From assembly GCA_016213945.1 (NCBI GenBank), contig JACQZF010000016.1, forward strand, positions 62,001 to 126,000: a stretch of DNA of 64,000 nucleotides. Direction: 5' to 3'. The position numbers were made by a program, and so were the translations under genes. A model generated the notes under the pieces. It searched no databases. It saw nothing but the letters and a program-made list of their open reading frames with translations, and was not told the origin of the DNA. The DNA is from Nitrospirota bacterium. GTDB taxonomy: Bacteria; Nitrospirota; Thermodesulfovibrionia; UBA6902. This document shows, in pieces, positions 18,079 to 64,000 of this stretch (its first letter is position 1; the number at the start of each line of letters is the position of its first letter).

Positions 18079-18285
18079 ATGAAAAGTGATGACAAAAATT
18101 CCAAAACGTATAAACTTCGATTTGGTGAAATTGCAATAATGAAGGGATTTCTCACCACATCACAATTGGAAGGAGCCTTATCAGAAAAAATAGGATATAG
18201 GCCTATAGGAGAGATCGTTTTAGAGAGAGGCTGGATGACATTAGATCAAATAGATATGGTTTTGGAAGAACTCAACAGTAAATAA
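18079..18285 (+). CDS. 68-residue MshEN-like helix-loop protein
   Basis: A small soluble protein, essentially one copy of a module with RFGEIAIMKGFLTTSQLEGAL and RPIGEIVLERGWMTLDQI. This resembles the N-terminal MshEN/GspE-type motif known in type II secretion ATPases and as a c-di-GMP-binding module in MshE. Two similar units occur inside CheA at the far end of the window. GGGGTGAG precedes the ATG. It stands alone between the UMF1 transporter and the PEP-CTERM gene. A regulatory or adaptor role is an inference. Confidence 0.6.
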   Translation: MKSDDKNSKTYKLRFGEIAIMKGFLTTSQLEGALSEKIGYRPIGEIVLERGWMTLDQIDMVLEELNSK

Positions 18286-18316: not shown

Positions 18317-19018
18317 TTACCTTTTTCTTTTCAAATATCTTCTTCCTGCTAAAAGTGTTCCACCAGCAAGAAAAAGAATAGAGCTTATCGGTTCAGGAAC
18401 AACCGTTGCACTCCCGACCCATCCACTGCCATCGCCGGTAGTGATGCCCTGGATGTGTGCCGCTGCAAAATAGGTACCGTTGCCACCAGCAGGTGCACTC
18501 GTAAAGTTGAAAGATGAAGCATTAATTATCCCTCCGGTGCCGTATTTGATATCGTAAATTATCGTCTCGTTATCAGTGAATCTGGAAGCAAAGTCTCCCG
18601 GAGGCGGCGGCATGTCAAAATTGATATCATATAAGCCGTCTCCATCTGCCTGGTAGGCGTTAGAGCTCCCGGTTACCGAATTTGGTGCAGCAGCAGAGGT
18701 GTTCACCGCATTGAAAGAGAGCAGAGATGCGTTCAGTGACGGGTCGAGATTGAAATACATATGAGTTGAGGATTCATTACCTGGATCCAGATTTGCAGCG
18801 AAAATAGTCAGTCTGACATCATACCCCGAAGCGGCAGCGGTATCGTCAAACGTCGCGATTAACCATGGCGCAGAGCCTGCAGGGCTGGTCCCGCTGAACG
18901 TAACATCATAATTGAAAGTAAGAGAGCTTCCCTGAGCTTGAACAGCCATTAGTGCCGTAAAGATAAATAATAAAGCAGGGAGTAGAATAATTTTTGATAT
19001 GTTTGTCATTTTTTTCAT
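18317..19018 (-). CDS. PEP-CTERM sorted exported protein
   Basis: A 233-residue protein with an N-terminal signal peptide (to about AQGSS), a low-complexity beta-rich body and a C-terminal VVPEPISSILFLAGG helix ending RRYLKRKR. This is the PEP-CTERM tripartite sorting tag recognised by exosortase, which cuts at the PEP motif and anchors or releases the protein at the surface. ATG 19018 with AAGGAGAGG upstream is preferred over an upstream in-frame start. No exosortase gene is in the window. The 209-bp upstream gap is very AT-rich and probably holds the promoter. Confidence 0.8.
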   Translation of the reverse strand: MKKMTNISKIILLPALLFIFTALMAVQAQGSSLTFNYDVTFSGTSPAGSAPWLIATFDDTAAASGYDVRLTIFAANLDPGNESSTHMYFNLDPSLNASLLSFNAVNTSAAAPNSVTGSSNAYQADGDGLYDINFDMPPPPGDFASRFTDNETIIYDIKYGTGGIINASSFNFTSAPAGGNGTYFAAAHIQGITTGDGSGWVGSATVVPEPISSILFLAGGTLLAGRRYLKRKR

Positions 19019-19227
19019 AAAAGTCCTCTCCTTATACAGGACATGTAATAAAAGCATTTAGTATCAGATAAATTTAAATTACATTTTATATGTCTATATG
19101 TCAACTATATAAATTTTATAAGTAATATAAGATTTATATATTAGTATAGTTGCGCAAATAGGCTTTCACATTTATTCTGAGTAGACGGAAAACTCTATTG
19201 TGAGATGAGCACGTAAAAAAGGCAGAA

Positions 19228-23397: not shown

Positions 23398-23541
23398 AAA
23401 TGGACGAAGGTTATCGTATAAATTCTCACAATTCAGGGATAAGTGTATTTACCACTTACGGAATTGGATATATAATTAAAAATAAAGGGGGGTATAAGAT
23501 TAAGGTGTTTCACTGAACATACCCAAGTGAAGGGGGTCGCG

Positions 23542-24480
23542 GTGGTCAAGAAAATATTTAATCTGTTACTCATCCCTCTGATTCTCACCGTTATTGTCAA
23601 CTGCAAAAAAGCTGAATCCCAGAAAGTAAATCTCGCAAAAAAAGAAACCACAACGCCAGTCAAAAAGCCGTCAAACGGAAAATCTGTCAGAATCGCGGTC
23701 GGCGGAATGATTACCCCCAAGGAAGGTTTTGCCTATTACCGCAGGCTCCTCGATTATATAGGTGAGAAATTGGACCGGCATGTGGAATTTGTGGACAGGG
23801 ACAATTATGCAGAGATAAATGAACTGTTGAAGAATGGAGAAATAGAAGCTGCTTTTGTATGCGGCGGCCCTTATGTTGAGGGGCATAAGGAATTCGGGAT
23901 GGAGCTTTTAGCCGCCCCTCTGGTCTACGGCGAGGCTGTGTATTATTCCTATATCATCGTAAATCAGGATAGCCCCATACACATGTTTCAGCAATTACGT
24001 GGTAAAAGGTTTGCCTTCACAGACCCGATGTCCAACAGCGGCCAACTGGTCCCTACTTACATGCTGGCAATGATGAACGAGACTCCTGACACATTTTTTA
24101 AATCATATATATTCACCCAGTCGCATGATAAAGCGATAAAAGCAGTAGCGCAGGGAATTGTTGACGGCGCGGCAGTGGACAGCCTGATATGGGAATACGC
24201 CAGCCGCACGAATCCTGTATTTACCTCAAAAACAAGGATCATAAAAAAATCACTCCCTTACGGGATCCCGCCGGTGGTAGTCCGCCGGGGATTGGATCCG
24301 GAACTGAAGGAAGCTTTAAGACAGATATATCTTAACGTGCACAATGACAAAAAAGGCAGGGAGATCCTCGATCATATGATGATAGACAAATTCATTCCCA
24401 TAGACGACAGCGCTTATGATTCAATCAGGGAGATGAAGGCGTGGGTTGCCAAACAGGCGTTAGGGAAGAAATCAAAGTAG
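23542..24480 (+). CDS. PhnD-like periplasmic binding lipoprotein
   Basis: A 312-residue type II periplasmic-binding fold of the phosphonate/phosphite-binding PhnD family. Signal and lipobox (VIVNC) come first, then RIAVGGMITPKEGFAYYRRLLDYIGEKL, FVCGGPYVEG, LRGKRFAFTDPMSNSG and GIVDGAAVDSLIWEY. GTG 23542 has AAGGGGGT four bases upstream and is preferred to the GTG at 23527. No ABC permease or ATPase follows. Instead a HAMP-GAF-GGDEF gene starts 7 bp downstream, so this protein probably presents a ligand to that sensor rather than feeding a transporter. Confidence 0.83.
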   Translation: MVKKIFNLLLIPLILTVIVNCKKAESQKVNLAKKETTTPVKKPSNGKSVRIAVGGMITPKEGFAYYRRLLDYIGEKLDRHVEFVDRDNYAEINELLKNGEIEAAFVCGGPYVEGHKEFGMELLAAPLVYGEAVYYSYIIVNQDSPIHMFQQLRGKRFAFTDPMSNSGQLVPTYMLAMMNETPDTFFKSYIFTQSHDKAIKAVAQGIVDGAAVDSLIWEYASRTNPVFTSKTRIIKKSLPYGIPPVVVRRGLDPELKEALRQIYLNVHNDKKGREILDHMMIDKFIPIDDSAYDSIREMKAWVAKQALGKKSK

Positions 24481-24487
24481 ATAACTT

Positions 24488-26188
24488 ATGAAAGTTATAA
24501 GCCTAAGAACTAAAATTCTGGTGATGATGGCAGGGCTGATAATGCTGTCAGGCATTGGGACAATGGTTTTCATAAAGACTGCGCTATACCAGAAACTTTT
24601 TATCAAACTTGAAGAAAGAGGAATAACTATAGCCAGGTATATCGCAGAGAACAGCGTTAATCCCATATTGACAGAGAAGTTCTATCAACTTGAGATGATG
24701 GCAAAGGATGTTAAAAGCACTGAGGAGGACGTTGAATATATATTTATTCTTGATGAACACGGTAATGTTTTAGCGCATACCTTTGACAAAGGCTTTCCTG
24801 TTGATCTGAAGATGGTTAATGTTATAGAAGCAGGAAAGGCATTCAGCGTTAAGACCGTTAGGGCCGGAGAAGAAGATGTTCTTGATATTGCCGTCCCGAT
24901 TCTGACGGGAGATGCAGGGGTTATTCATCTCGGTATTTCACATGCCTCCATAACAAAAGATATTAATGAGATTATAAGGTTTTTGCTCTTGATAGTTACC
25001 GCGATAATGTTTGCCGGGATCACCGCTGCAATTGTCCTTTCAAAGACAATAACCAAACCTGTCTCCGAGCTTACAAAGGCGGTGCGAGTTGTGGGCGGAG
25101 GCGATTTAAATTATACGGTTAATATAGGTGCAAACGATGAGATAGGGCAGCTTTCTGAATCCTTTAATAAAATGACAAGGGACCTGAAAGAAAGAACAGA
25201 CGAGCTTGAGAGAATTAATTCGGAATTGTCAATGCTGCAGGCCATCTCAATGGCGGCAGCCAGCACCATGAAACTGCATGACCTCTTTGCTGCCGTGCTA
25301 TATACATTAGCAAGTTTCAGGATATTTAAAATTGAATATAAAGGTGTGATATTCATCATTGACGGCGACAGGCTGAAGCTTGCTTTCCAGACAGGATTCC
25401 CAGAGCAATTTGTGGAGGCGCACAAATTTATGAAGGTCGGGGAATGCATCTGCGGGCTCGCAGCAGAGACAGGGAAGATTACTGTATCCCCGGATTGCGC
25501 GGCAGACAACAGACACACTCTTAAGTATCCAGGAGAGACTCCTCACGGTCATATAATTATCCCTCTTGAGGCAAGACACATGATTTTGGGGGTGTTGTGT
25601 TTGTACCTTCCTGTTGGGATTGAAGTAAGCGAACGCGAAATGGCGTTGTTTTATACCATAGGCAGCAGGATAGGGGCGGCAATCGACAACATAATGCTCT
25701 ATGAAGAGACAAAAGAGCTTTCCCTGCACGACCCTCTCACAAAGCTTGCCAACAGACGGTTGATGGACTATGTGCTCGGAACCGCGTTTGCCAAAGCACA
25801 GAGGGGCGAAAGTCAATTTTCAGCAATGATGATAGACATAGATTATTTCAAAAAATACAATGACACATACGGGCATACCTTCGGAGATAATGTGCTTATT
25901 GAGGTTGCAAAGATACTTTCAAAGGAGATAAGGCAGATAGACCTCGGCGTCAGATACGGCGGGGAGGAATTCCTTATCCTGCTTCCTGATACAGGATTAC
26001 CGGAAGCTTGCGATGTCGCTGAGAGGATAAGAAGGGAAGTGGAGGCAAAGACAGGAATTACCGTAAGCCTCGGGGTCTCCTGCTATAATTACAAGATGCA
26101 GGAAAAAGAAGAGATCATTATGAGAGCGGACGATGCCCTTCTGCAGGCAAAGCGGAAAGGAAGAAACCGGACAGAGGTCAATGCGTAG
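24488..26188 (+). CDS. Membrane diguanylate cyclase with HAMP and GAF domains
   Basis: A 566-residue sensor enzyme: transmembrane helix (about 10-30), a periplasmic domain of about 120 residues, a second helix (about 160-182), HAMP, a short coiled coil, a GAF domain (about 255-405) and a GGDEF domain. The active loop is RYGGEEF, and RQID five residues before it matches the inhibitory I-site RxxD. It should make c-di-GMP with product inhibition. The PhnD-like lipoprotein gene ends 7 bp upstream, which suggests a paired sensor. The 3' end overlaps the convergent acyltransferase gene by 11 bp. Confidence 0.88.
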   Translation: MKVISLRTKILVMMAGLIMLSGIGTMVFIKTALYQKLFIKLEERGITIARYIAENSVNPILTEKFYQLEMMAKDVKSTEEDVEYIFILDEHGNVLAHTFDKGFPVDLKMVNVIEAGKAFSVKTVRAGEEDVLDIAVPILTGDAGVIHLGISHASITKDINEIIRFLLLIVTAIMFAGITAAIVLSKTITKPVSELTKAVRVVGGGDLNYTVNIGANDEIGQLSESFNKMTRDLKERTDELERINSELSMLQAISMAAASTMKLHDLFAAVLYTLASFRIFKIEYKGVIFIIDGDRLKLAFQTGFPEQFVEAHKFMKVGECICGLAAETGKITVSPDCAADNRHTLKYPGETPHGHIIIPLEARHMILGVLCLYLPVGIEVSEREMALFYTIGSRIGAAIDNIMLYEETKELSLHDPLTKLANRRLMDYVLGTAFAKAQRGESQFSAMMIDIDYFKKYNDTYGHTFGDNVLIEVAKILSKEIRQIDLGVRYGGEEFLILLPDTGLPEACDVAERIRREVEAKTGITVSLGVSCYNYKMQEKEEIIMRADDALLQAKRKGRNRTEVNA

Positions 26189-55794: not shown

Positions 55795-56871
55795 TTACTT
55801 CTGCAGGCTGCAAATCCTGATAACCTCAGGGGCGATCTTCTCAAGCGGCAAAACCTTATCTACTCCGCCACGCTTTATCGCCTCATTCGGCATTCCGAAG
55901 ACAACCGAGGTGTTTTCATCCTGAGCGAAATTGTATGCCCCGGCTTCTTTCATCTCAAGCATTCCCCTTGCCCCGTCGTCACCCATTCCTGTCATGATTA
56001 CGCCCAGGGCGTTTTTTCCTGCGTAGCGGGCTGCTGAGCGGAACAGCACGTCAACAGAGGGACGATGCCTGCATACCAAAGGGCCGTCTTTCACTTCCAC
56101 GTAATATCTTGCGCCGCTTCTTTTTAGAAGGGTATGGCGGTTTCCCGGTGCAATAAGCGCCCTGCCGCGTATCACGGTATCATTGTCTTCAGCTTCCTTC
56201 ACCGTCACCTGGCATAAGCCATCCAACCTGCGGGCAAAGGCCGCGGTAAAGTTCTCAGGCATGTGCTGCACTATCACAATGCCCGGCGCATCGGGCGGAA
56301 GGGCCTCAAGAAAAACCCTGAGCGCCTCTGTCCCGCCGGTTGAGGCCCCTACCACCACGACTTTTTCTGTGGTCTGTATCATCGCCTTTGTCTCAGGTTT
56401 TGCGATTACGGCATCGGCGGTGAGTTTTGGTGTGACCTTTAAGGGTTTTGAGTTGAGTGGCGTCAATTTTGCTGAAGCTGCGGCTTTAACAGCATCGCAT
56501 ATTAACATTTTTGATTCCTCAAGGTATTTTTTTGCGCCGATACGCGGCTTCTGTATTACGTCTACAGAGCCGTATTCCAAAGCCTTTATTGTGGTCTCCG
56601 AGCCCTTTTCAGTAAGGCTTGAGCACATGACCACCGGGATGGGGCGCTGGCTCATAATTTTCTGAAGAAAAGTGATGCCGTCCATGCGCGGCATTTCTAC
56701 ATCAAGTGTGATAACGTCGGGGACTTCGTGTTTAATTTTCTCCGCAGCAATGTACGGGTCGGCGGCAGTCGCCATAACCTCAATCTGCGGGTCGGACGAG
56801 AGGATCTCCTCCAGTGCCTGCCTGACAACAGCCGAATCGTCAACGATAAGAACCTTTATTTTGTTCTTCAT
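55795..56871 (-). CDS. cheB: Chemotaxis methylesterase
   Basis: A 358-residue CheB: receiver domain ([14 protein letters not shown], Asp in [11 protein letters not shown]), a long linker and the methylesterase domain with GASTGG (Ser), VQHMPENF (His) and [10 protein letters not shown] (Asp). It removes methyl groups from receptors. ATG 56871 is preferred, with GGAAGGATATTG upstream; an earlier start overlaps cheR. Confidence 0.92.
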
Positions 56872-56902
56872 CAATATCCTTCCCAGCCCTGTGCCCTTTG
56901 CT

Positions 56903-57787
56903 TCATCCTGGTTTCCTGTAGATGGTCGTTGACACTGATACAAGCGGGATGTTCATGTTGTGCAGGGTTTCAGAATGTCCCAAGAAAATATATCCCCCCG
57001 GACTGAGGTGGCGGCAGAATTTGTTCAATAACTTCTCCTGCGTCGGTCTGTCAAAGTAGATCAGGACGTTCCGGCAAAAAATAATATCCAATGGCTCTCT
57101 CATACCGAAATCACCTTCCAGAAAATTCAGTCTCCGGAACTTCACCTTCTCCCTCAACCCGGGAACTATTCGCACAAGATTTTGATTACGGTCCCGGCCG
57201 CGAAGCAGATATTTCTTCCGTAGAATACCGGGAACGGGATCTGCGCTGTCGTGACTATAAATAGCGTTCTTCGCCTTCTCCAGCACCTTTGTTGATATGT
57301 CGGTTGCAAGGATTAAAAAATCGAATCCGCTTTTGGGGTAATTTTCAGCGAATTCACTGAGGACCATTGAGAGTGTGTACGGCTCTTCGCCAGTGGAACA
57401 TCCAGCGCTCCAAACCATGAGTTTCCTGCGAGAGTCCGTGCATTTTTTGCTCATCAGTGCGGGTAACGCAATACTGGTCAAGTATTGAAAATGCTTTGGC
57501 TCACGGAAGAAGTCCGTCTTGTTGGTCGTGACCACATCTATCATGTGGACCAGTTCATTCTGCATCCCTTCAGGGCGGAAAAGATAATCGCAATATTCTC
57601 TGTATGTTCTTAATCCCAAAGCGCGCAGTCTTTTGTGAAGACGCGATTCAAGCATGACTTTTTTAACAGGTGGCATCTTGATGCCGCATTCATTATATAT
57701 AAAATCACTGAGACGAGTGAAGTCATGATCAGAAAGTTTTGCTTTGAATAAGTTCAAGTGCACGCTTTCATTTATTACAGGTGTCAT
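56903..57787 (-). CDS. cheR: Chemoreceptor methyltransferase
   Basis: A 294-residue SAM-dependent methyltransferase: helical N-terminal domain, [15 protein letters not shown] (SAM site), [13 protein letters not shown] and [11 protein letters not shown]. It methylates glutamates on receptors. It lies between cheW and cheB, with a terminator-like hairpin 46 bp upstream of its start. Confidence 0.92.
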
Positions 57788-57832
57788 ACGGTTTTATCCC
57801 GTGAATTTTTTCGTAATCAAGTTATTTTCAAT

Positions 57833-57859
57833 AAAAAAAGGCAGGCACACAGGCCTGCC
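57833..57859 (-). terminator. Hairpin terminator after cheW
   Basis: GGCAGGCC and GCCTGCC arms with a short loop, followed on the minus strand by TTTTTTTATT. It begins just after the cheW stop and should limit reading into cheR. The reverse strand also has a weak U-run. Confidence 0.65.
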
Positions 57860-57865
57860 GCCTTT

Positions 57866-58384
57866 TTAGTTTTTACCCTCGCTATCTTTTGTCCTTCCGC
57901 CCGCATCCTGCACCATCGTCAGTTCATCCATTGAAAACACCTTGTCAATATCAAGGATGATAATGAACTCTCCATCCCTTTTACCCATTCCCTTGATGAA
58001 TTCCGTGTTCAGTCTCATGCCAATTTTTGGCGCAGGCTCTATCTGCTCCGGCTCAAGCTCAAGGACCTCCTGCACGGAGTCCGCAAGCGCGCCAAGTATG
58101 GTCTTCTCTCCGTCAACCGAAACTTCAACAATGATAATACATGTGGTTATCGACTTCTGCGTCTCTGTCATGCCGAATTTTAATCTTAAATCCACCACTG
58201 GCACCACACTGCCTCTCAGGTTGATCACTCCACGCATGAAGTCAGGTGTTTGTGGCACCTTGGTCACTTTTGTAAATTCAAGCACCTCACGCACTTTTGC
58301 TATATCGAGCGCAAATACTTCTTCATCAAGCTTGAAGGTCAGATGCTGTGTTGCCTCTATTATTTCAGCTATGCTCATGGTCAT
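57866..58384 (-). CDS. cheW: CheW-type coupling protein
   Basis: A 172-residue protein with the CheW fold: FKLDEEVFALDIAKVREVLEF, GVINLRGSVVPVVDLRLKFG and DIDKVFSMDEL. It joins chemoreceptors to CheA. A short polar tail follows the last strand. Confidence 0.92.
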   Translation of the reverse strand: MTMSIAEIIEATQHLTFKLDEEVFALDIAKVREVLEFTKVTKVPQTPDFMRGVINLRGSVVPVVDLRLKFGMTETQKSITTCIIIVEVSVDGEKTILGALADSVQEVLELEPEQIEPAPKIGMRLNTEFIKGMGKRDGEFIIILDIDKVFSMDELTMVQDAGGRTKDSEGKN

Positions 58385-58449
58385 CTCCTTTTTTATAAAA
58401 AGTGTCAGTGACAGTAAAAAGACCTAATTGACACTGATCACCGACACTT

Positions 58450-60156
58450 TCAATATTTCTCAAATTCCTCATCCAGGTTTCTGTTGCCGTCCATTTCGAG
58501 CACTACACCCGCGGGCTTTGGTGCATGAACGGTTGCCGGCTTGGGGTTTAGTGAAGTCGAGAGCGCCGCTTTTGCAGGGGCAGTTGTCCTGGTTTCTGGA
58601 GCCATTCTTTTCACTCTTGCTGTTGTTTGCCTTGCACTGTAATTGCCACCTTCTATTTTAAAGAATGCAATAGTGTCCTGAAGCTGTTCCGCCTGTGACG
58701 CCAGTTCCTCTGCCGTGGATGACATCTCCTCTGAGGCCCCCGCATTCTGCTGAATCACTGTGTCAAGCTGCTGTATCGCCCTGTTTATCTGCTCTACGCC
58801 TGCGTTTTGTTCATTGCTCGCCGCACTTATCTCCTGTACCAGCTCCGCCGTCTTCTGGATGTCGGGAACAAGTTTTGTTAGCATCTCTCCTGCCTTCTCC
58901 GCTACCTGTGTGCTTGTGGATGATAATTGGCTGATCTCTGCCGCTGCCGTCTGGCTCCTCTCCGCGAGTTTTCTTACTTCTGCCGCAACCACCGCAAAGC
59001 CTTTACCGTGCTCTCCCGCGCGTGCGGCTTCGATCGCCGCGTTAAGCGCTAACAGGTTCGTCTGTCTCGCTATCTCTTCGATAATTGATATCTTGCCTGC
59101 TATCTCCTTCATGGCTGTCACTGCCTCTGTAACAGCCCTTCCGCCTTCCATTGCGTCAATGGCTGCCTTCTCCGATATCTTTGCGGTCTGCTGTGAGTTG
59201 TCCGCATTTTGCCTGATATTGGATGCCATCTGCTCCATTGACGATGAGGTCTCTTCAATAGACGACGCCTGTTCAGTTGCGCCCTGCGACATCTGCTCCG
59301 AGCTTGCGCTTAACTCCTGGCTGCCGGAAGATACGTTATCCGCCGCAGCTTTTACGTCGCTCACAATCTCCCTCAGTTTCTCAACCATGTGTTTCATTGA
59401 GGTAAGCAGTTGTCCCGTCTCGTCCTTGGTTCCGGCTTCGATATCCAATGTCAGATCGCCCTCAGACAACTTGTTTGCCACATGTACTCCTTGACTTAGA
59501 GGCTGCGTAATACTGCGTGTTATTAAGAGGCTGGTCCCCATGCCGATAGCAATAGCTATTAGCGTGAGAACTATTAAAATAGTGTTTACCCTGGCAGTGA
59601 AACTTTCAATTACATCTTCTTCGCCTTCCATGGTTTTATTGGCAGCATTAGCAAGCTCCTCTGCTGACGTTTCAAGTTTGTGGCTTTCATTCTTAACTTC
59701 TTTAATGGCATTATTGCCTTCCTGTGGTGTATTTATCTTTCCGGCTTGAAGCATGCCGTAAACTTTGTTGAATCCTGATGCATATCCGCCTAAATTTTCC
59801 TTTATCTGCTTAACTGCATCCTTGTCGTCCTGATGAACTGCTACTTTTTCGAGGTCACCGATTATTGCTGTCAGATGATTGTATTGTTCTTTCCATTTGC
59901 CTTGATACTCAGCCTGTTTTTCATATGATCCCATATTAAGAAATATATCTTTTTCAAATCTGCGAAGATTAAGTATATCCGTATGCGCTATTGACGAATT
60001 TTCCGCAATCTGTGCCTCACCTTGGAGCATTGTAATAGTTTTGTTAGAAACTGATTGAACCCCCCAATAGCCTGATCCCATTATCGTCAAGAGTAAAAAT
60101 AACACGATGCCGAATCCCAGCATCAAACGTGTCCCGATTTTCATGTTTTTCAACAT
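58450..60156 (-). CDS. Membrane chemoreceptor with 4HB sensor
   Basis: A 568-residue methyl-accepting chemotaxis protein: helix (about 10-30), a helical periplasmic domain of about 160 residues, a second helix (about 190-213), HAMP, and a signalling domain with [22 protein letters not shown]. The C-terminus ends LDEEFEKY, an aromatic-x-x-aromatic tail that may tether CheR or CheB. AAAGGAGGAAGG precedes the ATG. The cheW gene follows. Confidence 0.9.
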
Positions 60157-60218
60157 TTACCTTCCTCCTTTGTTGTTTTACAGCGCCTGCAAGGATTTAT
60201 AGTCCATGCAGGCTCTAT

Positions 60219-61877
60219 TCAGTATTTTTCAAATTCTTCATCAGCGCGTCCGTTGTCATCCATTTCAATCACGGCCCCTGCAGTTTTATGGCCCTCCTTT
60301 CCGGCAGTAGATACGGGAGACAAACGTCTTGATGATATTTGAGTATTATTTAAAGAAGTTGCCTTTGTTATTTTTTTAGAAAAGAAAGTTTTTTCTCTGT
60401 TATCATGCTGGTTATTATTTATGCCGTCATCAGCAGTCTTGAAAAATGATACGGCGCCTTTTAAGAGTTCTGCCTGGGACGCAAGTTCTTCAGCGGTTGA
60501 AGATAGCTCATCTGAAGCCCCGGCATTGTCCTGTATTACCTTGTCAAGCTGTTGCATTGACGCATTTATTTGCTCCGCCCCTGTACTCTGTTCATTGCTT
60601 GCCGCGCTTATTTCCTGCACAAGCTCCGCAGTCTTCTCTATGTCAGGGATAATCCTTGAGAGCATGTTGCCTGCTTTTTCAGCGATACCCATGCTGACAG
60701 ATGATAATTCATTTATCTCAGCTGCAGCAGCCTGGCTTCTTTCCGCGAGCTTTCTTACCTCTGCGGCCACCACCGCAAAACCTTTTCCGTGCTCTCCCGC
60801 GCGCGCGGCCTCAATGGCAGCGTTAAGCGCCAGCAGATTGGTCTGCCGCGCAATTTCTTCGATGATTGATATCTTGTTGGCAATTACCTTCATTGCCTCT
60901 ACAGCCTCCGCAACCGCTTTGCCTCCCACATGCCCGTCTGCCGCTGCTTTTTCGGAAATCTTCGCGGTCTGCAGTGCGTTGTCTGCATTTTGTTTTATGC
61001 TGGAGGCCATCTCTTCCATTGCCGACGCAGCTTCTTCAGCTGCAGAAGCCTGCTCCGTTGCCCCCTGTGACATCTGTTCGGAATTGACACTCAACTGCTG
61101 GCTGACCGAGTATACGCTGTCTGCCGTAAGTTTTACGTTCAATACAACATCCCGGATTTTACCCAGCATTTTGGATAGCGAATTACCGAGGATGTCTTTT
61201 TCTGAAAGGGGTTCCACTTTAGTGTCAAGATCGCCGTCCGCTATTCTCTCGGCAGCCTCAGCCAGTCTGTGAAGATTGTCAATTACTTTGTTCACGCTTC
61301 CTGTTATCCGGCCTATTCCATCATCGCGCCCGGCTGCTAAATGTATTGACAGGTCTCCCATGCTTAACGCATCAAGATTTCTCTCGAGCACGCTGATCTG
61401 CCCTTCCAGGTATTCCTTCTGGTCGTGTGATTCTTTCTGAAGACGATTAAGCTCCGATATGTCAATGATGACCTCCATGCCGCCATAAGCATGGCCCTGC
61501 CCGTCTATCAGAGGAGAGCAGACCGCCTGTATCGGGAACCGGCTCCCGTCTTTAGTTTCCGCGATTGTCTCGCCGATTATCACATTGCCTGTCTGCATAC
61601 AGTTTTTAAGCGTGCAGTTCGTTGTTCCGCAAAGCGGCGTTTTAGCGAATTGCCCGCAGGTCATCTTCCCAACCACATCCTCCCGGCTGTAGCCCATTCT
61701 CTTTAAAGCAGCGTCATTAATAAATGAGATAGTTAGATCCTTGTTAACAACAAGCATTGGTGCGGCTATAGCCCCTGTAATATTCTTATATTGCATGAGT
61801 TCCTGTTCCAGTTCACTGTTCCTGTTTTGCAATCTTTGATTTTCATCAAGTAAATCTTTTTTAAAAAATTTGAGCAT
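60219..61877 (-). CDS. Cytoplasmic PAS chemoreceptor
   Basis: A 552-residue receptor with no transmembrane helix: coiled coil, PAS domain with [15 protein letters not shown] and KNCMQTG, HAMP-like segments, and the signalling hairpin [22 protein letters not shown]. The end ADEEFEKY matches the neighbouring receptor. The four clustered Cys may hold a metal or iron-sulfur site, for cytoplasmic redox sensing. Confidence 0.88.
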
Positions 61878-61947: not shown

Positions 61948-64000
61948 CTACGCATTAGTTGTGACTTCCTCCAGTTCGGCAGTTTGAACGAGCTTAACAA
62001 CATCGAGAATCAGCGCTACTGTTCCGTCGCCGAGTATTGTCGCTCCTGAAATCCCTTCTATAGTTTTGTAAAACCTTCCTAATGACTTAATTACCGTTTG
62101 ATGTTCTCCGATAACATGGTCAACCACAAAACCCACCCGGTGACCGTCTATCGAAGTGATGACAATCTGTTCGATAGACGGTTTGCCGCCGTTTATGCTG
62201 AACTGCTCTCGCAAGCTGATATACGGGACTATCTTTCCTCTGACATTCGCTATCTGTCTTCCGTGTGTCCTTGCTATATCATCGCCAGTGAGCTCCACGC
62301 ATTCTTCAACCGAGAAAAGCGGCATGACATAGTAGTCCGGTCCTATCTTCACCAGAAGTCCCTCGATGATAGCGAGGGTGAGAGGGAGTTGCAGAGTTAT
62401 TGTTGTTCCAACACCTTTCCGGCTGGTTATATCAATTGAACCTCTCAGGTTCTCGATAGCCCTCTTTACAACGTCCATGCCCACCCCCCGGCCCGATACA
62501 TTGGTTATTGTTTTTGCCGTTGAAAAGCCGGGGGCAAGGATTAGTGAAAATATTTCTTTTTCCGTCAGATCGTCAGCAGGAGCTATCATCCCCTTTTCGA
62601 CAGCCTTGGCGCGAATGACCTCAGGGTCAATCCCTGCTCCGTCATCTACTATTTCAATTAATACATACGCTCCCGAATGTCTGGCAGAAAGCTGCAGCAG
62701 TCCCTGTGCGGGTTTACCGAGGGAGCTTCTTTTGCCGGGCTGCTCAATGCCGTGGTCTATGCTGTTTCTTATCAGATGCACAAGCGGGTCGTTGAGTCTC
62801 TCGATTACTGTCTTGTCGATCTCGGTTTCAGCCCCTTCTATAAGCATTTCTACTTCCTTGCCTGTCTCTGCGGAAAGGTCCCTTACAAGGCGTTTGAATT
62901 TGCTGAACAGAGCGCCGATGGGCACCAGCCTGACACTCATTGTGTTGTCCCTGAGTTCTTCGGTAAGCCGCTCAACTTCTTCTGCTATGAGAATAAGTTC
63001 GGCGTCGCTTTTAGATGCGGCAGTCTGAGTGAGTCTTGCCTGGACCGTAACAAGTTCTCCAACAAGGTCCACAAGGCGGTCTAGTTTGTCGGAGGAAACA
63101 CGGATGCTTGACGCCGCTTCAGCCTGCTGAGTGCTCTGCTTGGTCTCTTTTATGCTTTTGATTTCCCTGAGGTGCTGTTGTTCGGAAAGTGCCGCTTCAA
63201 GCTTTTGGGGTTCAATCACATTTGCTTCAACCAGCATTTCTCCAATGCGCTTCTGCTGCCCGAGCACTTTCCTGAGGTTTTCCTGTGTTATAAATCCGCG
63301 CTCAATAAGTATCTCGCCGATCTTCTTATTGCCGAATTCCTCGTCGAATTTTCCTGTGTCGTCAATGACGTCGATACTGAGTTTGCATTCATCCTCAACG
63401 AAGATAAAGACGTCTTTGATTGCGTTCATCCCTTTGCTTGTTGTGATGATGATGTCCCAGTATGTGTAGCATGACTCAGGGTCAATGTCCTCCAATTGAG
63501 GAATTGCGTCAGTATATGCAAGGATTTTACAGTTGCCGAGTGTACATAGTTCATCTAATAAAAGAACGGGGTCTATCCCCTTTGTGAAGATGTCTGGATT
63601 GGGGCGGAACTGTATCCTGAATGTGATGTTCTTGTTTTCAGTCTTAGATGCACATTCATTTATTATTGGAGCAACTGCATCCCTGTTTTCTTTATGCTCT
63701 TTTTGTATCGCAAGTTTTCTAAAGTATATGAGAATTTCTTCGCCTCCTGTCACAGTATCCCCATCAGGGGAATCAAGCAATCTTTTAATGTGGTCACGGG
63801 CGGAGAGGGTCAGGTCAATCAGTTGTTTTGTGACAGGAATTTTACCGTTTCTTACAAGGTCAAAAACAGTTTCGACTTCGTGGGCAAATGCCGCGATCTT
63901 GTCGAAGCCGAACATGGACCCTGAACCCTTGATGGTATGAAGCGCGCGGAAGGCGCGGCCGATAAGCTCCCCGTCATCCGGTGTTTCTTCCAGCGCAAGC
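61948..64000 (-). CDS. cheA: CheA histidine kinase with inserted MshEN-like repeats, 5'-truncated
   Basis: The frame runs past base 64000, so the N-terminus is outside. Visible parts in order: HPt with ALHTIKGSGSMFGF (phospho-His), a region of about 150 residues, a double motif IGEILIERGFITQENLRKVL and IGEMLVEANVIEPQKLEAAL, a dimerisation helix pair, HATPase (LIRNSIDHGIE, DDGAGID, GRGVGMDVVK) and a CheW-like C-terminal domain. The double motif resembles the MshEN/GspE N-terminal unit and is not part of standard CheA. It heads the chemosensory operon in this window. Confidence 0.9.
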   Translation of the reverse strand, partial: LALEETPDDGELIGRAFRALHTIKGSGSMFGFDKIAAFAHEVETVFDLVRNGKIPVTKQLIDLTLSARDHIKRLLDSPDGDTVTGGEEILIYFRKLAIQKEHKENRDAVAPIINECASKTENKNITFRIQFRPNPDIFTKGIDPVLLLDELCTLGNCKILAYTDAIPQLEDIDPESCYTYWDIIITTSKGMNAIKDVFIFVEDECKLSIDVIDDTGKFDEEFGNKKIGEILIERGFITQENLRKVLGQQKRIGEMLVEANVIEPQKLEAALSEQQHLREIKSIKETKQSTQQAEAASSIRVSSDKLDRLVDLVGELVTVQARLTQTAASKSDAELILIAEEVERLTEELRDNTMSVRLVPIGALFSKFKRLVRDLSAETGKEVEMLIEGAETEIDKTVIERLNDPLVHLIRNSIDHGIEQPGKRSSLGKPAQGLLQLSARHSGAYVLIEIVDDGAGIDPEVIRAKAVEKGMIAPADDLTEKEIFSLILAPGFSTAKTITNVSGRGVGMDVVKRAIENLRGSIDITSRKGVGTTITLQLPLTLAIIEGLLVKIGPDYYVMPLFSVEECVELTGDDIARTHGRQIANVRGKIVPYISLREQFSINGGKPSIEQIVITSIDGHRVGFVVDHVIGEHQTVIKSLGRFYKTIEGISGATILGDGTVALILDVVKLVQTAELEEVTTNA

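Follow-up and report, generated by a model that had tools for sequence, protein, structure and literature searches.

In a widespread subfamily of the chemosensory kinase CheA, represented here by a Nitrospirota protein, the linker between a P2-like domain and P3 carries a compact pair of repeats of the MshEN/GSPII type, and there is about an even chance that this putative cyclic di-GMP (c-di-GMP) receptor feeds the kinase. The repeats are related in sequence to MshEN, follow a predicted P2-like domain and are conserved across phyla. The protein is encoded at the end of the window, the 64,000-nucleotide stretch that was analysed (positions 62001-126000 of contig C35 in a 3.5-Mb genome). The complete cheA gene encodes 709 amino acids (L007:3949-6078:-), with the N terminus beyond the window end and the first 26 codons outside it. 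Its Pfam domains are those of a CheA, i.e., an Hpt domain with a likely phospho-accepting histidine, a dimerisation domain, HATPase_c and CheW (Table 1).

Further chemosensory genes follow cheA in the same orientation. Upstream of cheA, past the window end, the same strand encodes a STAS protein, a CheY-like receiver, a protein of 408 aa (with an MCP match) and a regulator of the LuxR type. The 408-aa protein (L007:6902-8128, contig C35) adjoins CheY and combines the MCP signalling match with a sub-threshold match to CheZ. A second, different CheA is encoded on contig C12 of the same genome, and the organism probably has a flagellum because FlhA is present in the genome. GGDEF-domain matches number 23 in the genome, with one of them inside the window. 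At window positions 23527-26188, a gene for a phosphonate-type substrate-binding protein is directly followed by one for a GGDEF protein with sCache, HAMP and GAF domains.

Table 1. Features of the cheA region and of the 68-aa stand-alone gene, in window coordinates
Feature	Position	Strand	Residues and details	Basis
cheA, window part	61948..64000	-	residues 27-709 of 709	Hpt, H-kinase_dim, HATPase_c, CheW matches
Hpt (P1)	63787..63975	-	residues 35-97; HTIKG, likely phospho-accepting His47	Pfam, sequence
P2-like domain	63358..63627	-	residues ~151-240; ferredoxin-like fold	AlphaFold2, Foldseek
MshEN/GSPII-type unit 1	63253..63324	-	residues 252-275	NF053729, profile comparison, alignment
MshEN/GSPII-type unit 2	63178..63249	-	residues 277-300	NF053729, profile comparison, alignment, AlphaFold2
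H-kinase_dim (P3)	62932..63111	-	residues 323-382	Pfam
HATPase_c (P4)	62377..62790	-	residues 430-567	Pfam
CheW-like domain (P5)	61978..62364	-	residues 572-700	Pfam
Chemosensory genes after cheA	55795..61877	-	same strand as cheA	Pfam (MCPs), translations (CheW/CheR/CheB)
MCP	60219-61877	-		Pfam
MCP	58450-60156	-		Pfam
CheW	57866-58384	-		read from translation
CheR	56903-57787	-		read from translation
CheB	55795-56943	-		read from translation
68-aa protein, two MshEN-type units	18079..18285	+		NF053729, alignment, AlphaFold2, Foldseek
68-aa protein, unit 1	18118-18189	+	residues 14-37	
68-aa protein, unit 2	18202-18273	+	residues 42-65; 4-residue linker after unit 1	

The two units of the CheA, KIGEILIERGFITQENLRKVLGQQ (residues 252-275) and RIGEMLVEANVIEPQKLEAALSEQ (residues 277-300), are 24 residues each, are joined by a single residue and together span window positions 63178-63324. 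The original prediction had read them as a double MshEN-like motif ahead of the dimerisation part, and both the motif and its relation to MshEN are borne out. With the NCBIfam c-di-GMP motif model NF053729, the CheA reaches 48.1 bits, above the curated cut-off of 38. A profile of CheA fragments aligns with a profile of MshEN pairs in hhalign at 97.3% (E 2e-11), with a single gap of exactly four residues between the units, and in the PDB, the CheA profile matches the c-di-GMP receptors MshE (5htl) and PilF, and also PilB. The highest-scoring pair of units in the CheA reaches 56.2 bits, compared with no more than 11.7 bits when the entire protein sequence was shuffled 300 times. A chance or low-complexity resemblance could be argued from a short motif made of common residues, for which Pfam gives just a sub-threshold match to DUF4388, but the profile comparisons, the PDB matches, NF053729, the shuffles and the conservation among relatives refute this explanation and leave it next to no probability.

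The Pfam MshEN model (PF05157) reports neither the CheA nor a 68-aa stand-alone protein of the same window, and it finds six other places in the genome, where its matches adjoin, without overlapping, the motif pairs found by NF053729. Since the Pfam model misses both proteins, the lack of a PF05157 match cannot be taken to mean that the repeats are missing. The repeat segments also drew FumaraseC_C and other weak hits in Pfam, which were short and sub-threshold and were set aside.

For MshE, two motifs with a five-residue joint are described, each holding half of the ligand, with contacts from Arg1, Leu2, Gly3, Leu17, Leu21 and Gln24 (PMC5013675). In Thermus PilF, lysine at position 1 binds better than arginine, and a single Gln-to-Glu replacement at position 24 weakens binding ~80- to 160-fold, while replacing both glutamines abolishes it (PMC11731258). 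The PilF GSPII-C domain binds despite its longer linker (PMC12002112). Like the N-subdomain of MshEN/GSPII (V. cholerae MshE 5htl, Thermus PilF GSPII-B and the NF053729 model), the CheA pair is made of two half-motifs of 24 residues, has the same contact positions, passes the NF053729 cut-off and has four helices, predicted in the case of CheA. It differs in being housed in a CheA, in being followed by P3 where MshEN has a C-terminal subdomain, and in its linker of 1 residue, against 5 in MshE and 7 in PilF GSPII-C in the PDB-profile alignment made here. Loss of the ligand-contact residues had been named as a finding that would count against the original reading; in the CheA family these residues are for the most part retained, and every contact class is kept in both units of this CheA. 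It follows the two-motif consensus except that position 10 of unit 2 is Asn instead of Gly and that there are conservative replacements (Lys for Arg, Ile for Leu). The Asn takes the place of the MshE turn glycine, and the same residue is frequent there in PilB MshEN domains of the lineage.

The placement of the repeats has to be revised. The units had been taken to stand where a standard CheA has P2, but AlphaFold2 on residues 140-333 (40 aligned sequences; mean pLDDT 85.3) predicts a P2-like domain with the order b-a-b-b-a-b ahead of them, at a pLDDT above 90. In Foldseek this domain matches P2 of Thermotoga maritima CheA (1u0s_A; prob 1.00, TMt 0.58, E 0.011), with other ferredoxin-like proteins matching equally well or better, and a Pfam search of the protein gave no P2 match. 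Because the predicted domain precedes the units, the repeats sit in the P2-P3 linker of the model and would not replace P2. Structure prediction of the insert bears out the original proposal as far as helix order, with four predicted helices in the order of MshEN (residues 253-260, 265-274, 278-284 and 290-323), the last of which, starting in unit 2, would continue to residue 323, towards the P3 dimerisation helices. The Foldseek match list for the CheA fragment is dominated by the P2-like domain and so is silent on how the repeats pack.

The survey of relatives shows how regular the compact pair is. A first set comprised 62 aligned CheA rows, including the query, from whole-protein relatives scoring above ~400 bits, with second-type CheAs left out. 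A filter recognised two units in 50 of these rows, with a spacing of 25 residues in 47 and of 27, 37 and 41 residues in the other three. Twelve rows fail the filter; by eye, ten of them have no clear pair or another linker sequence, and two (L023 and L025) do have units that the filter or alignment did not register. A second set of 50 further loci, all confirmed as CheA against the query, came from a search of 246 genomes of the Nitrospirota phylum and shares some genomes with the first. The 25-residue spacing was found in 47 of the 50, with gaps in the match in the other three, and this set leans towards that spacing because the search model was built from such pairs. In 26 MshEN pairs of pilus- or secretion-type ATPases from related genomes, the linker is five residues in every case, so the unit spacing is mostly exactly 25 residues in CheA and 29 in MshE. 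L025 and L026, distant CheA relatives, have much longer linkers between two units, and in L021, L022, L074 and L121 the pair is preceded by an additional degenerate unit.

Merging the 25-residue pairs of the two sets (47 and 47) gave 85 distinct CheA pairs, all with this spacing by selection. Gly3 is present in all 85 in both units. The position-24 Gln is kept in all 85 in unit 2 and in 66 in unit 1; position 1 is Lys or Arg in 68 pairs for unit 1 and in 71 for unit 2, and position 4 is Glu in 62 and 78, respectively. At position 11 of unit 1, which belongs to the hydrophobic core, 60 of the 85 have Asp and five, including this CheA, have Phe. Residues E8, R9 and D11 of unit 1 and A20 and E23 of unit 2 are conserved in the CheA pairs and not in MshEN. 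Among the 47 pairs of the first set, 25 keep all contact classes in both units, this CheA among them.

The architecture is widespread in Nitrospirota, Desulfuromonadales and other groups, with the named CheA relatives mostly from the first two. Geotalea, Geomonas and Geobacter argillaceus are culturable relatives that carry this CheA. Repeats are absent from some relatives and are therefore dispensable for a CheA. On a tree of 61 sequences that excluded the repeat region, presence or absence requires 5 changes, compared with a mean of 9.5 for shuffled labels. The tree fits old presence followed by several losses, including in Desulfovibrionaceae, with repeated gain as the alternative.

Several lines favour the explanation that the pair is a putative c-di-GMP receptor passing the level of the messenger into the kinase: the NF053729 score above cut-off, the hhalign match to MshEN, the PDB matches to MshE and PilF, and the retained contact residues. 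The position-1 Lys was counted for binding because lysine suits binding in Thermus PilF (PMC11731258), and the genome's GGDEF-domain matches were counted for c-di-GMP reading. Counted against it were the spacing of 25 rather than 29 residues, the silence of PF05157, the frequent Asp11 of unit 1, the Asn of unit 2 and the relatives that lack repeats. Judged from sequence, the contact residues favour binding, the one-residue linker may or may not allow the pocket, and the kinase could plausibly be under c-di-GMP control. Such control could work by changing the freedom of P1 and P2 to reach the kinase core or through action on P3 via the long helix. A search of the literature found no published case of binding by an MshEN-type pair with a linker shorter than five residues and no test of c-di-GMP binding by the compact CheA version.

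A somewhat less probable, though serious, competitor takes the repeats for a structural or docking module, with MshEN-like hairpins kept and c-di-GMP lost, that would serve as a P2-P3 spacer or as a site for a partner protein. The conserved compact spacing, the CheA-specific conserved residues and the variable unit number, with one more in some relatives, are in line with it, as are PilB-PilZ complex entries among the Foldseek matches of the stand-alone 68-aa fold. There is also precedent in the N-terminal domain of Xanthomonas PilB, which has been solved in complex with PilZ. The polar contact positions 1 and 24 are mostly kept, however, although a structural need for them is not known, and the last Gln of unit 2 is invariant. 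The compact pair might instead be unable to close on itself and form its pocket between the chains of a CheA dimer, with unit 1 of one chain meeting unit 2 of the other. CheA is a dimer, and the NF053729 search aligned the first half of the model with unit 2 and the second half with unit 1. This arrangement is quite improbable, as the preference for one order is slight: both units tend to look like motif I, and the direct order scores better in 30 of 85 pairs. A swapped unit order, hinted at by the NF053729 alignment, gave no clear signal when the 85 pairs were checked. A bolder form of the receptor explanation, rather unlikely though less so than the inter-chain pocket as such, is that the compact pair is a second, CheA-specific MshEN geometry through which c-di-GMP would act directly on the kinase, perhaps via a pocket shared by two chains.

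The PilZ chemoreceptor Tlp1 and MapZ, which acts on CheR, tie c-di-GMP to chemosensory pathways, the entry point in such systems being the receptor or CheR and not CheA. Cbp1 is described as another PilZ chemoreceptor making this link (PMC6454048). If the compact pair binds, c-di-GMP would reach the central chemosensory kinase directly in many Nitrospirota and Desulfuromonadales. The family also offers a natural test of how short an MshEN pair can get and still bind, and of what remains otherwise. The MshEN-CheA fusion is of a kind already known and is also covered by NF053729: MshEN-CheA and MshEN-CheX fusions were listed by Wang et al. 2016, whose main text names the same domain combination without a CheA sequence or spacing (PMC5013675). 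No description of the compact 25-residue spacing was found in the literature, that paper being covered by its main text. At E <=0.1, DUF4388 (PF14332) matches 25 of 40 fragments from CheAs and 25 of 28 of the stand-alone proteins; its match to this CheA is below the curated cut-off and covers part of the profile. The present analysis adds that the repeats are predicted to lie behind P2, that compact spacing prevails, how the repeats are spread and where they are absent, and that the 68-aa protein has probably lost ligand binding.

The original prediction saw that protein as nearly one unit by itself, and it turns out to hold two. It scores 49.0 bits with NF053729 (cut-off 38), and its pair scores 13.3 bits, compared with at most 3.0 bits when it was shuffled 1000 times. 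The best Foldseek match of its AlphaFold2 model is MshE with c-di-GMP (5htl_B; TMq 0.72, rmsd 1.3, with E 0.5 for a very short chain). It is one of a distinct family of small proteins that have two units and share this predicted fold. The family has a match at E <=0.001 in 44 of 61 related genomes, some larger proteins also being picked up, and 28 aligned members have Phe15, Gly44, Ile46, Gln57 and Leu62 in common. The unit-1 Gln is nearly invariant in these 28 but lost in this copy, in which position 24 is Lys in one unit and Leu in the other. Binding of c-di-GMP in the known way has probably been lost in this protein because the two glutamines that it lacks are the ones that, when replaced together in Thermus PilF, cost that protein its binding (PMC11731258). 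No gene context is shared across the family among its neighbours, sharing being confined to small subgroups, and no match pointed to a phage origin. Family members show weak matches to EpsG, a chain-length-determinant tyrosine kinase (TIGR03029). The gene adjoining that of the 68-aa protein (window 18317-19057) encodes a protein with a PEP-CTERM-like tail. Elsewhere, a 125-aa protein (L245:3297-3674; G000:C73), encoded beside a von Willebrand-type-looking gene, has three or four MshEN-like units by eye.
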